Source: Prorocentrum cordatum
Lineage: Eukaryota; Sar; Dinophyceae; Prorocentrales; Prorocentraceae
NCBI GenBank assembly: GCA_963575745.1
Contig: CAUYUJ010003880.1
Span: 250,001 to 314,000 of the forward strand
Direction of reading: 5' to 3'
Length of the DNA stretch: 64,000 bases
Below are positions 14,762 to 61,899 of the stretch, piece after piece; position 1 is the stretch's first letter; every line of letters starts with the position of its first letter. Made by a program: the position numbers and the translations under genes. The notes below the pieces were generated by a model, which was not told the origin of the DNA, ran no database searches, and saw nothing but the letters and a program-made list of their open reading frames with translations.

Positions 14762-15092
14762 TAGGACGAGGATCAATCCGTTCCAGAACCCGAAACGCTT
14801 TCACAACATTCCAGAAAGCTCTTGGATTCGAATAAGAAGAAGCCACATGATAAGTTTTTGGCGCTCCGCGAGGATTTCTTGGATCCGCGCGTCGGCCCCC
14901 CCGGCGGCGCCTCTGGCGCCGCTCCTGGCTCGCTCGGCGTGCCAGGGAAAGGAGTCCAGCACGGATCCAAGAAATCGGCGGGGAGCGCCAAAAGTGTAAA
15001 GTTAAGTGGTTTGTTTATTTTTCGAAGGACAAGGATCAGTCCGTTCCAGAGCGTCCCGACACGCTTTCACAGCGTTCCAGAACGCTCTGGGA
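14762..15092. mobile_element. Foldback element FB1 between direct repeats
   Basis: The foldback core runs from about 14856 (TTTTTGGCGCTCCGCG) to 14996 (CGGGGAGCGCCAAAAG). Its arms contain GATTTCTTGGATCCGCGC and the inverse, around a GGCGGCGCC centre. It sits between two copies of a segment of about 65 bp (14762-14823 and 15026-15092), each with GATCARTCCGTTCCAGA, CGCTTTCACA and TTCCAGAAMGCTCT. The outer repeat may be a tandem duplication or part of a larger element. Confidence 0.75.
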
Positions 15093-18700: not shown

Positions 18701-18879
18701 CACCGAGCGCGACAGGGGAGCTCGCGGCCGCGCCGTTCCCGGGGGGGGCGGCGCGGCTCCCAGAAATGGTGCAGAAAGATGGGCTCCAGGGCTCCGGGTG
18801 TGACTTTTTGGTTGTCTCGCCGCGCCGGATCTCAGGGTTCGCGGCGAAGCGTCGCCCCCGCGACGCCCGGGGCCGGCGG

Positions 18880-20232
18880 TGTGAGGGGTGTGCCAGAATG
18901 GGGGGTGGAACCGCATGCGGGCGCAGCCACTGGGGCCTTCGGTGGAGCTCCCTATTGGGCCACGAAGCGTGCGAGGGGTGTGCCAGGATGGGGGGTGGAA
19001 CCGCATGCGGGCGCAGCCACTGGGGCCTTCGGTGGAGCTCCCTATGGGGCCACGAAACGTGTGAGGGGTGTGCCAGAATGGGGGGTGGAACCGCATGCGG
19101 GCGCAGCCACTGGGGCCTTCGGTGGAGCTCCCTATGGGGCCACGAAACGTGTGAGGGGTGTGCCAGAATGGGGGGTGGAACCGCATGCGGGCGCAGCCAC
19201 TGGGGCCTTCGGTGGAGCTCCCTATGGGGCCACGAAACGTGTGAGGGGTGTGCCAGAATGGGGGGTGGAACCGCATGCGGGCGCAGCCACTGGGGCCTTC
19301 GGTGGAGCTCCCTATGGGGCCACGAAACGTGTGAGGGGTGTGCCAGAATGGGGGGTGGAACCGCATGCGGGCGCAGCCACTGGGGCCTTCGGTGGAGCTC
19401 CCTATGGGGCCACGAAACGTGTGAGGGGTGTGCCAGAATGGGGGGTGGAACCGCATGCGGGCGCAGCCACTGGGGCCTTCGGTGGAGCTCCCTATGGGGC
19501 CACGAAACGTGTGAGGGGTGTGCCAGAATGGGGGGTGGAACCGCATGCGGGCGCAGCCACTGGGGCCTTCGGTGGAGCTCCCTATGGGGCCACGAAACGT
19601 GTGAGGGGTGTGCCAGAATGGGGGGTGGAACCGCATGCGGGCGCAGCCACTGGGGCCTTCGGTGGAGCTCCCTATGGGGCCACGAAACGTGTGAGGGGTG
19701 TGCCAGAATGGGGGGTGGAACCGCATGCGGGCGCAGCCACTGGGGCCTTCGGTGGAGCTCCCTATGGGGCCACGAAACGTGTGAGGGGTGTGTGAATGGG
19801 GGGTGGAACCGCATGCGGGCGCAGGGGGGTGGAGCTCCCTATGGGGCCACGAAACGTGTGAGGGGTGTGCGAATGGGGGGTGGAACCGCATGCGGGCGCA
19901 GCCACTGGGGCCTTCGGTGGAGCTCCCTATGGGGCCACGAAACGTGTGAGGGGTGTGCCAGAATGGGGTGGAACCGCATGCGGGCGCAGCCACTGGGGCC
20001 TTCGGTGGAGCTCCCTATGGGGCCACGAAACGTGTGAGGGGTGTGCCAGAATGGGGGGTGGAACCGCATGCGGGCGCAGCCACTGGGGCCTTCGGTGGAG
20101 CTCCCTATGGGGCCACGAAACGTGTGAGGGGTGTGCCAGAATGGGGGGTGGAACCGCATGCGGGCGCAGCCACTGGGGCCTTCGGTGGAGCTCCCTATGG
20201 GGCCACGAAACGTGTGAGGGGTGTGCCAGAAG
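18880..20232. repeat. 90-bp satellite array, about 15 units
   Basis: The unit runs from GTGAGGGGTGTGCCAGAATG through CGCATGCGGGCGCAGCCACT to CCTATGGGGCCACGAAACGT with a period of exactly 90 bp. Units from about 19061 to 19780 look identical. The first two differ slightly, and units near 19781-19970 carry small deletions. Because 90 is a multiple of 3 and the unit lacks stops in several frames, open frames run through on both strands (for example a 30-residue repeat with PEWGVEPHAGAATGAFGGA). No start, SL or flanking exon supports translation. Confidence 0.9.
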
Positions 20233-20778
20233 GGAGGGGGAGGAGGGAGGAGGAAGGAGAGGAGGAGGAAGGAGGAGGAAGGAGGAAGGAGGAAGGAACG
20301 CGGGGACCGTCTCTTCAAAACGAGGACCCAACAACACAGGTTGGTTGGGAAAAAATAGGAATCCTGTTATTTGTGTCTATTTAACTGCGTGACCTTGGGC
20401 CACTTGAAATCATGTCGTCGGTGATTCGGCTTCGACGTCGTAACTCGAGTCTCCGGCCACCGTTCGGGACGGTTCGGGCACCCCGAGAGCGGTCTCGGCG
20501 AGGCGCATCTGCTGGAACGCATCCCAACGCTGACTGGCCTCGAGCACCTTTCTTTTGGTCGACGTTTTCTTATCCACTGTTTTGCCGATCGGCGCGGGCC
20601 TCGCTTCCTCGCGCTCCATGGATCCATGGAGTAGATCTTGGTTTTTTGTTGGGCGCCTGTTTCGAGCAGGCGGATTCCCCCCCCATGGGACGCACTGCTG
20701 CACACAGTCGCACCGAACAGAGGCCTGGAGCAACCCCCCTACCCCCCCTCCCTTCGCCCAGTGTCGAAGCGCTCGGAG
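20233..20778. other. No recognisable feature
   Basis: A purine-rich GGAGGAAGGA stretch follows the satellite to about 20295, then unique-looking sequence without gene motifs. Confidence 0.5.
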
Positions 20779-55239: not shown

Positions 55240-55420
55240 TAAGTACAAGAAGCAGGAACGGCATACACATACACTTTTGGCGCTCCGCGTGGATTTCTTG
55301 AATTCGCGCTGGACCCCCTCCCTGGCGCCGGAGTCGCCGCCATGGGGCCCAGCGCGGATCCAAGAAATCCGCGCGGAGCTCCAAAAGTTTACATGTATCC
55401 AGTTCTTCTTCGAGTAAGAC
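55240..55420. mobile_element. Foldback element FB1, complete copy
   Basis: The core 55273-55388 starts ACTTTTGGCGCTCCGCG and ends CGCGGAGCTCCAAAAGT. Stem blocks GGATTTCTTGAATTCGCGCT and AGCGCGGATCCAAGAAATCC are inverse. Weaker inverse similarity (AAGAAG ... ATACA) extends about 30 bp outward on each side. Confidence 0.8.
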
Positions 55421-59433: not shown

Positions 59434-59596
59434 CTCCTCCTCAGCAGGCTGGGCGGCACCTTTTCTCTGAGCTCGGCGGTGGGAGTGTTTCCACCGTCCC
59501 CCGGGGCGCCTGTGTCAGGGGCAATCGCCCGCAGGCGGGCCGGACCCCCTGCAGTCGAAGAAAAATCGACGCCATGAGCAGAAGCAAGCCATAAAC

Positions 59597-59644
59597 TTGT
59601 TGGCGCTCCTCGCGCATTTCTTGGAGCCGCGGTGGGCCCCCCTG
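59597..59644. mobile_element. Foldback FB1 copy, left part (interrupted)
   Basis: TTGGCGCTCCTCGCGCATTT then CTTGGAGCCGCGGTGGGCCC is the left FB1 arm. The element resumes at 61275, so the retrogene sits inside it. Confidence 0.8.
59628..59644 (+). repeat. Target-site duplication, left copy (retrogene)
   Basis: CGCGGTGGGCCCCCCTG, identical to 61275-61291, ends directly before the SL. Confidence 0.9.
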
Positions 59645-59666
59645 TCCGTAGCCATTTTGGCTCAAG
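59645..59666 (+). other. Complete dinoflagellate spliced-leader sequence
   Basis: TCCGTAGCCATTTTGG followed by CTCAAG is an exact match to the conserved dinoflagellate SL (first base T). It is followed by CTTCC, not by a GT splice donor, so it is a retroposed SL and not an SL RNA gene. Confidence 0.95.
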
Positions 59667-59748
59667 CTTCCGCAGTTGGTTGCAACTTGGAAGTCGCTGG
59701 CGACCCCGCCCTCTGCAAGCATCCGCCGAGCCGCAATGGCCCCCGCAC

Positions 59749-61198
59749 ATGCCGGAGCTGGAGGAGGTCCCTGTGCCAGCGGATGCGCAGGCACTGTGGG
59801 AGAGGAACGGCGGCCTGGAGCTCGACCCCGTGCTCGGCAGTGGAGCGGTCGTCCTGATGGACGCGGAGTGGATGGTGAGGCGAGCGCGCACTGGCGGCGT
59901 CCTCGAGCCGCGCCAGGCGTTGCCGCCGACGGCCTTCGTGCCCCACAGCGCCGTCAAGGCCGCCACGCCCTTAGACCTTGTGCCGTTGCTGCACATCGCG
60001 TGCATATCACACTGCTGGCTGCAGGCGAACCACCCGGATCCACGCGGGCACAACCTGCGCATCTTGGGCCAGGCCCTGCAGCTGCAGTTTCACTATGTAG
60101 TTCAAATGCGCAGCCGCTGGTGTGTATTCATGGACTTCTGCTGCATCCATCAAAACTGCAGGGACCGCGAGGGCGTTCCCCATCAGCGCACCTACCAGCG
60201 GCTCGAAGGCTCAGATTCTTTCGAGGACGATGCCCTCGGCCGCTTCGAGCTGGAGCATGCGCTCTTCAAGGAGGCATTGGGGAGCCTGGGGGCTTCTACT
60301 CCCACCCCGCCACTGTCGTCTTCATGCTGACGCGGTTTCCAGATGATTACGGCGATGCTGCAAAGTACACCCAGTCGGGCAACACGGAGCAGTACTTCAA
60401 CCGTGGCTGGTGCTTCTGCGAGTCCTCCTGGGCGATGCTGACGAAGCCGGCTGACGTATTGGACCTCGGCCGATCCACCGGAGCGGAGACCTACTACTAC
60501 GAGTTGGTGAGTACCTGCGCCGCGGGGCGCCGGGCGCCCTTCCTGCCCGACGCCTTCGACGTGGAGCTGCAGAGCAAGGGGTTCACCAACGGCAAGGACG
60601 ACCGTCCCCGGGTCGCCGAGCTCTACCGCTCCGCCTTCGCGCAGCGCTTCGAGGCCGCGGAGGATCTGCTCTACATTGGGCTGCAGTGGGGGGACGAGGA
60701 GGCGCAGCAGCTGGCCGCCGTGCTCGCCTCGGGCGCCGCGCCCCGGCTGGTGAGGCTCGACCTCGGCCGCAACCGCGTGGGCGACGAGGGCGCCGCGCGG
60801 CTGGCGGAGGCCCTGCGCGCCCCGGGCGCGCTGCCCCAGCTGCAGAAGCTCAACCTCGCCTTCATGGGCGACGAGGGCGCCGCGCGGCTGGCGGAGGCCC
60901 TGCGAGCCCCGGGCGCGCTGCCCTGGCTGCAGTGGCTCGACCTCCACAGCAATCGCGTGGGCGACGAGGGCGCCGCGCGGCTGGCGGAGGCCCTGCGCGC
61001 CCCGGGCGCGCTGCCCCAGCTGCAGAAGCTCAACCTCGCCTTCAACCGCGTGGGCGACGAGGGCGCCGCGCGCTGCCCCGGCTGCAGAAGCTCAACCTCG
61101 CCTTCAACCCGCTCGGCGGGCCGGGCCGGGCGGCGCTGCGCGCCGCGTGGGCGGAGGCCGGGCGCCCGGAGGTCGGCCTGGATCTCGGCGACTACTGA
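59749..61198 (+). pseudogene. HET-like domain plus leucine-rich-repeat protein (retrocopy)
   Basis: The start is ATG 59749 (MPELEEVPVPADAQALWERN), 82 bases after the SL. The N-terminal domain has ISHCWLQANHPDPRGHNLRI, CVFMDFCCIHQN, FYSHPATVVFMLTRFPDDYG and YFNRGWCFCESSWAML. The order SxCW, DxxCIxQ, RGWCxxE recalls the fungal heterokaryon-incompatibility (HET) domain; a TIR-like fold is an alternative. A linker (FTNGKDDRPRVAELYRSAF) leads to 28-residue LRRs of the NLRC3/ribonuclease-inhibitor type (RLDLGRNRVGDEGAARLAEA and repeats, 60750-61100), ending LDLGDY at TGA 61196-61198. The frame shifts once in a G5 run near 60286-60290. It shifts again near 61072, where 31 bp are missing from the fourth LRR. 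About 483 residues if intact. Function is inferred only as innate-immunity-like sensing or scaffolding; this copy looks broken. Confidence 0.7.
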
Positions 61199-61248
61199 GG
61201 AGGGCTGGGCGCGGCGCGGCGCGCGGCCGTCCGAGGCGCGCGGCGCGG

Positions 61249-61274
61249 AAAAAAAGGGGGGGGGAAACAAAAAA
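61249..61274 (+). other. A-rich tail of the retrogene
   Basis: Seven A, nine G, then AAACAAAAAA up to the duplication; probably a degraded poly(A) tail. Confidence 0.7.
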
Positions 61275-61390
61275 CGCGGTGGGCCCCCCTGGCGGCGCCT
61301 CCGGCGCCGCCCCTGGCGCCCTCGGCGCGCCAGGGAGGGGGTCCCAGCGCAGATCCAAAGAAATCTGCGCGGAGCGCCCCGTGGCTTTTT
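61275..61390. mobile_element. Foldback FB1 copy, right part (interrupted)
   Basis: It starts with the second target-site duplication (61275-61291), then GGCGGCGCCTCCGGCGCCGC and AAGAAATCTGCGCGGAGCGC. Joined to 59597-59644 it restores an FB1 stem-loop. Confidence 0.8.
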
Positions 61391-61899
61391 TTTGTCTTCT
61401 ATGCATGCACAGCCGGGAACGTTTTGAGCGCCGCGCGGAGCTCCGAGCATCGAGGGAAGCCGGTGCGCTCTCGCGGGCGTCGGGCGCACCGGTTCGGTTC
61501 GAGGCGCGGGCCCCCCAGAGAGCTGGAGCCCCTCCCTTGGGGTTCCTGTTCTGCCAGAGGCGCTCGGAAGACTCCGGCTGGAGGTTCTGCAGGGGCAAGA
61601 CCAGTGGGGAGAAGGAAGCCGTAGAGGCGGACCGAGGTACCAGGTCGTCGTGGCCGGTCTGGGGAGGGTGCCCCAGTGTTCTTCTCGTGTCTGTTGGAAA
61701 TTCCTTCGCCTTGCTCTCTTGCACGCCGGACAATCTGCCCATCGGTGGCCCCGATTTATCAGCGCCACGCGGGTGCGGAGTGCCTCCTTGCCTCGCCGCC
61801 GACGGGACCAAGTTTGTTGGCTATTCTGGTGCATCCTGGGCGGGGGAAGCCGCGCAGTCGGACCGAGGTATAAGATTCCAGGCCTCCAAAATTCGGGGG
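61391..61899. other. No recognisable gene
   Basis: About 500 bp without protein or RNA motifs. Confidence 0.5.

Follow-up and report, generated by a model that had tools for sequence, protein, structure and literature searches.

The window analysed in this work, a stretch of 64,000 nucleotides from the own genome of Prorocentrum cordatum (C3880:250001-314000), carries on its plus strand an mRNA-derived insert between two identical 17-mers. The first of these (CGCGGTGGGCCCCCCTG, 59628-59644) is directly followed by a complete, DNA-encoded dinoflagellate spliced leader of 22 nt (59645-59666) and by a 5' UTR (59667-59722) that begins where the source gene has its trans-splice acceptor and is identical to the relative L010 at 56 of 56 positions. 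A 38-nt deletion at 59722/59723 has removed the start codon and the MGCC protein start, and the coding sequence continues in three segments: 59724-60291 up to a 1-nt deletion, 60292-61067 in a shifted frame with leucine-rich repeats (LRR_6, E 9.2e-15) up to a 31-nt deletion, and 61068-61198 including the stop codon. The 3' UTR (61199-61247) ends at the poly(A) site GGCGCGCGGCGCG, and an A-rich tail without counterpart in the intact genes (61248-61274) leads to the second copy of the 17-mer (61275-61291).

Leader, duplication and target site

An earlier note on this DNA had described a complete leader directly 3' of the first 17-mer and an exact repeat of the 17-mer directly after an A-rich tail, and both were found as described. 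The leader sequence used for the search is that of the dinoflagellates; its 21-nt core, which together with the preceding base makes up 59645-59666, is exact in the insert and has no other match in the window at up to 3 mismatches (0.00 expected from shuffles). The leader is complete to its first base, the 5' end of the mRNA, and PMC12014239 gives a relict form that agrees with the last 15 nt of the sequence. Even with 2 mismatches allowed, the window has no match to the 17-mer beyond these two copies, where shuffles predict 0.10. When the stretch 61201-61400 was scanned for the 5' flank, the exact 17-nt match came out with a score of 17, the best of 50 shuffles of the stretch reaching 8. These shuffle controls rule out a chance origin of the repeated 17-mer. 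The tail consists of one G, seven A, nine G, AAAC and six A, and is therefore A-rich as described (16 A in 27 nt) but no clean poly(A). For its nine consecutive G, slippage, tailing or an assembly error are all possible.

The exact leader might also be that of a spliced-leader RNA gene or of a working gene with leader. A splice donor after the leader, which would point to the former, is absent, with CTTCCG following, and Rfam at gathering thresholds gave 0 family matches over the whole window; an SL RNA gene was rejected on these grounds, and a working gene because the start codon is lost and the frame broken. We give practically no weight to this explanation.

The insert lies within a foldback repeat, the left part of which ends with the first 17-mer (59580-59644) and the right part of which starts with the second (61275-61378). 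Uninterrupted copies of the target repeat, proposed earlier as a check, are present in the window at 14835-14989 on the plus strand and at 55324-55391 on the minus strand. After joining both flanks with one 17-mer, the resulting sequence aligned across the junction with the first copy at 127 of 157 identical positions and with the second (55391-55324) at 61 of 70, while random joined flanks of the same geometry aligned across their own junction in 3 of 300 trials. These empty sites are paralogous and not allelic. The target repeat also matches its own sequence in inverted orientation, and a foldback repeat family with inverted ends is present in several copies in the window (14835-14998, 55268-55391 and 59580-61378). 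A tandem array with 90-bp spacing was also seen in the window at 18789-20331, most of its copies being 93-99% identical to the reference copy. The proposed reading of the locus, in which a processed mRNA with its SL was copied into a foldback repeat and came to be flanked by a target-site duplication, is supported by our analysis.

Lesions, relatives and source gene

The coding region is intron-free, as had been stated, but not intact, with deletions of 38, 1 and 31 nt relative to its relatives. All 11 aligned relatives carry one extra base at 60292; the 38-nt gap (about 59722/59723) is visible as such against L009, L010, L011 and L015 and the 31-nt gap (about 61067/61068) against L009, L010, L011 and L013, the other relatives aligning differently at these places. 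The 1-nt loss, next to a run of G, may be due to a sequencing error; for the two longer deletions this is unlikely. With its start codon deleted and its frame broken twice the insert is a processed pseudogene and not a working retrogene, which qualifies the label "retrogene" of the earlier note. The loss of start codon and frame took place either after insertion or already in the source.

The lesions also affect gene models in the databases. Among protein records, the second coding segment is matched best by one from P. cordatum, with 100% identity over 97% of the query, and the GenBank model P0001 of this locus consists of the window frames, leaves out residues where the frame first breaks and stops short of the second break. 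Another model, P0003 (NLRC3 according to one source), has the sequence of the retrocopy L014, which carries frame-breaking indels of its own. Both models compared look like frames that were patched over breaks by annotation, and caution is needed with these two proteins, as they come from retro-pseudogenes.

We searched the own genome (4,128,499,153 bases) with the insert and short flanks as query, which gave at least 65 matches, with scores computed for 40 of 788 first-look candidates, and took 34 genomic stretches of relatives for comparison. Among the matches listed, the query, extended by 65 nt on its 5' and 49 nt on its 3' side, is found at full length only at the window, and all others start at or inside the leader or later. 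This argues against an mRNA copy that was inserted elsewhere and reached the present locus by a later DNA duplication of that insert, as does the duplication abutting the insert exactly; even with the many repeats and tandem families in the assembly we consider such a history very unlikely.

An intron-bearing relative, which the earlier note had suggested looking for, is present on C16101 (L053) as an intact gene with three exons, introns of 2051 and 1487 nt and a spliced frame of 453 aa. Its exon 1 starts with CTTCCGCAG, at the identical base to that after the leader in the insert, and is preceded by ...TTGTTGGTTCAAG in the genomic DNA. The exon 2/exon 3 junction, occupied by a GC-AG intron in relatives (1487 nt in C16101), is joined in the window copy (59790/59791), and the exon 1/exon 2 junction falls inside the 38-nt deletion. 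Both C16101 introns have GC...AG ends and in each of them the two ends resemble one another, as would be expected for introner insertions; introner elements and 51.4% GC donors are described for P. cordatum in PMC10666404. The acceptor region before exon 1 (CCACTGCGTTGTTGGTTCAAG) agrees with the leader core at 14 of 21 positions (hand count), so that the gene itself may be the descendant of an old leader-tagged copy which gained its introns later.

A tandem trio on C14528 (L009-L011) has intact 510-aa frames and is intronless; its 5' UTR is preceded by a TCC tract with GCTCAAG, perhaps a 7-nt leader relic, at its end. Because this intact trio is intronless as well, the lack of introns alone is weak evidence of a passage through RNA, whereas the combination of leader, poly(A) site, tail and duplication proves it. 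No close source gene was found among the relatives in the own genome, the top identity in the aligned core being 94% (L017), and the difference between the insert and its nearest relatives is mostly confined to hypervariable patches. Three copies (window, L016 and L029) follow the intact genes up to GGCGCGCGGCGC(G) and then run into A-rich sequence at their 3' end, which defines a common poly(A) site that L028 possibly shares; the intact genes read on past it with AGAGGCC. The duplications of L014 and L019 lie 3148 and 2330 nt from the leader, and their 3' ends are thus further downstream.

The proteins of the family start with MGCC and contain leucine-rich repeats that in sequence come nearest to those of ribonuclease inhibitor, and over 309 codons in 12 copies 82% of the sites are invariant. 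The variation is concentrated in sharply bounded hypervariable patches of varying in-frame length, in the window at 59938-59990, 60083-60117, 60450-60515 and 60663-60680 and at variable LRR positions in 60750-61120. Compared over L009-L029 the patches have random-looking residues, like binding loops, in copies that are nearly identical elsewhere. Synonymous and non-synonymous differences are both raised in the patches, with a pN/pS of 1.55 in 64 patch codons against 0.63 in the 245 others and a pS about five times higher in patches, a contrast that is inflated because the patches were picked for their diversity. The cause may be diversifying selection, targeted mutation or segment conversion. 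Adenine-directed mutagenesis of the kind known from diversity-generating retroelements is not supported, since adenines within a patch are invariant among the genomic copies (TAC). A literature search on hypervariable dinoflagellate leucine-rich-repeat genes gave, judging by titles, nothing on such patches.

Sibling copies and leader sites in the genome

Six further loci of the family (L014, L015, L016, L019, L028 and L029) have a leader or a decayed leader at their 5' end. It is exact in L014 and L019, with one change in L015 and two in L028, and in L016 and L029 it carries deletions and changes and was recognised by eye; when the 34 stretches were searched for exact matches, L014 and L019 were the only ones to have the whole leader, and L028 had its last 12 nt. 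The seven leader-tagged copies are scattered over the family tree, the inner branches of which are mostly weak (9 of 29 starred). The bases directly before the leader are alike in L016 (CCCCGCCAGCC) and L029 (CCCCACCAGCC), which suggests that these two may go back to a single insertion. Duplications are kept in three of the seven copies, namely the window (17/17), L014 (20/20) and L019 (16/19). In L016, L028 and L029 a duplication was sought and none found, and L015 was left out of this count, having repeats on both flanks.

As a measure of age we counted private changes at sites that are identical in 12 genomic copies. The window copy has 7 in 751 (95% range 0.37-1.92%) and L014 8 in 754, followed by L015 (26/764), L016 (33/764), L019 (37/764), L028 (45/759) and L029 (47/751); the genomic copies themselves have 0.13-1.55%. 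Changes of the unsampled source gene are included in the figures of the leader-tagged copies, which therefore give a maximum for the time since insertion. The state of the duplication tracks age: it is perfect in the window copy and L014, the two youngest, degraded to 16/19 in L019, and was not found in the three copies with 33, 45 and 47 changes. Furthermore, leader, both 17-mers, 5' UTR and the part from stop codon to tail of the window insert show one difference in 164 nt (hand count). The insert is recent on the scale of its family. The coding difference of about 6% from its relatives was rejected as insertion age, since most of the variation falls in patches in which every member differs from the others.

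The sibling copies also bear on an artefact of assembly or library in which cDNA was joined to genomic DNA. Local sequence is duplicated on both sides of the insert, the lesions are private to the window copy and siblings occur with other duplications at other places, making an artefact extremely unlikely.

The exact leader followed by C occurs 4,837 times in the genome (2428 and 2409 by strand) against 0 for a reversed-pattern control, and at 1,202 sites a leader is combined with a second 15-nt leader end. The window insert is one among thousands of leader-bearing sites. From transcripts, 477 retrogenes are given in PMC12014239 for P. minimum, the former name of P. cordatum. The genome of the species is given as about 4.15 Gbp in PMC10449503. 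The pattern CTCCTCCT-N-leader was found 467 times and its complement AGGAGGAG-N-leader 212 times (binomial p 6e-23), both being raw counts of patterns that each catch one repeat phase only. The excess behind CTCCTCCT could reflect a bias of insertion or the survival of copies behind a pyrimidine tract.

We sampled 12 leader+C sites, ten of them being every fifth of the first 50 listed and two being the first two of six absent among the listed double-leader, TCC and GGA matches. Clean duplications are a minority in this sample: one site (L050) has a duplication of 15/15, three (L043, L052 and L056) lie within a repeat present on both sides, and in the remaining eight no duplication was found within 2.4-3.85 kb. 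Upstream of the first ten leaders there is a CCT tract in six cases, GGA in one and other sequence in three. For the leader site of L043, which is inside a repeat array, no A tail was seen. In L050 (C130) two different sequences, each headed by a leader (at locus positions 151 and 1316), directly adjoin one another in the order 15-mer, leader with gene 1 and A-rich tail, the same 15-mer, and immediately leader with gene 2, possibly two mRNA copies inserted at one target.

Mechanism and relation to known systems

The insert derives from an mRNA, has its full 5' end, stops at a poly(A) site and was inserted by way of staggered nicks. As the process behind it we propose, with a probability of roughly 0.9, that a leader-bearing LRR mRNA was reverse-transcribed and inserted into the foldback repeat by LINE-type machinery acting in trans. 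The mRNA of a multicopy leucine-rich-repeat gene would have been trans-spliced to the 22-nt leader, have ended just after GGCGCGCGGCGCG and have been copied up to its first base, and the cDNA would then have entered the repeat at nicks 17 nt apart. For the copying step we infer target-primed reverse transcription by a non-LTR (LINE-type) retrotransposon.

Integrases leave duplications of 4-6 bp and end joining usually leaves none. The capture of a cDNA at a double-strand break by end joining or its integration by an LTR-type integrase could be suggested by the irregular tail and by the eight sampled leader sites without a duplication within reach, but neither fits the perfect 17-bp duplication of the window or the duplications in three other inserts (L014, L019 and L050), which differ from it in sequence. 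With 15-20 bp these are LINE-like in length, and we regard end joining or an integrase as unlikely. Against the LINE-type process proposed here stand the mixed tail with 10 G in 27 nt, the leader site of L043, at which no A tail was seen, the low share of clean duplications in the sample (1 of 12) and the top identity of 94% to a relative. The window duplication does not start with A, so a nick with a T-rich primer end as in L1 is not seen. In the four duplications the preceding base is C in all and the first two bases are AA in three, which is too few for a motif; as tails end in A, the lengths of those three are perhaps 1-2 nt too high.

Leader-tagged retrogenes of dinoflagellates (DinoRL) were reportedly first described by Slamovits and Keeling in 2008. 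As reviewed in PMC6050394 and PMC12014239, these copies are tagged by leader relics. With its leader directly before mRNA-derived sequence the window insert bears the mark of this class, and it shares with it the origin as an mRNA-derived gene copy marked by the encoded leader; in DinoRL repeated rounds stack leaders, as at the 1,202 sites mentioned above. The studies deal mostly with transcripts of expressed copies with partial relics, whereas the present insert is seen in the DNA with whole leader, tail, both duplications and target, and is broken. No report of target-site duplications was found in the accessible parts of the dinoflagellate retrogene literature, our search of which lay outside Slamovits and Keeling 2008 and Song et al. 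2017.

Processed pseudogenes mediated by LINEs are characterised by missing introns, a 3' poly A and target-site duplications (PMC4151081). The insert resembles them in some form in each of these: introns are absent, although this is weak evidence, the 3' end falls at the poly(A) site common to L016 and L029 but carries a tail with 16 A in 27 nt, and its duplication of 17/17 lies within the usual range of about 7-20 bp; it also begins at the mRNA 5' start and its frame is disabled. It differs in its mixed tail and in its exact 5' end, which is provable because the leader marks it. For RNA-virus insertions in dinoflagellates a nearby leader was likewise read as host retroposition, with LINEs suspected (PMC10235124), but there the leader is within 500 bp of 6 of 26 insertions and not at the exact junction, and the accessible text describes no duplication. 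Insertions with terminal inverted repeats and short direct repeats, to which the foldback target bears a likeness, are common in this genome as introner elements (PMC10666404); the insert differs from them in being an mRNA copy. Events of this kind are known, but here their traces can be read unusually well.

A wider and more tentative idea is that a very productive machinery copies whole mRNAs and that gene birth by mRNA recycling is a self-feeding cycle in the DNA, which we consider possible though rather doubtful. The machinery of P. cordatum would copy mRNAs in full, up to and including the leader's first base, copies landing behind a TCC (pyrimidine) tract would gain a ready trans-splice acceptor in which the AG of the encoded leader could itself act, and such copies would be expressed and recopied, so that leaders stack up. 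Signs that may be cited for it are the 4,837 leader+C sites, the 1,202 with a second leader, the ratio of 467 to 212 and the intact intronless trio behind a TCC tract ending in GCTCAAG.

The recycling of mRNA in dinoflagellates has so far been inferred mostly from leader relics in transcripts, and the enzyme responsible, the completeness of the copies and how often they work are open questions in the field. From the window locus and its siblings one can read exactly where single events start and end and which duplication they left, and also their relative age; with thousands of candidates in the genome the duplication length, nick motif, 5' completeness and survival of such copies become countable.
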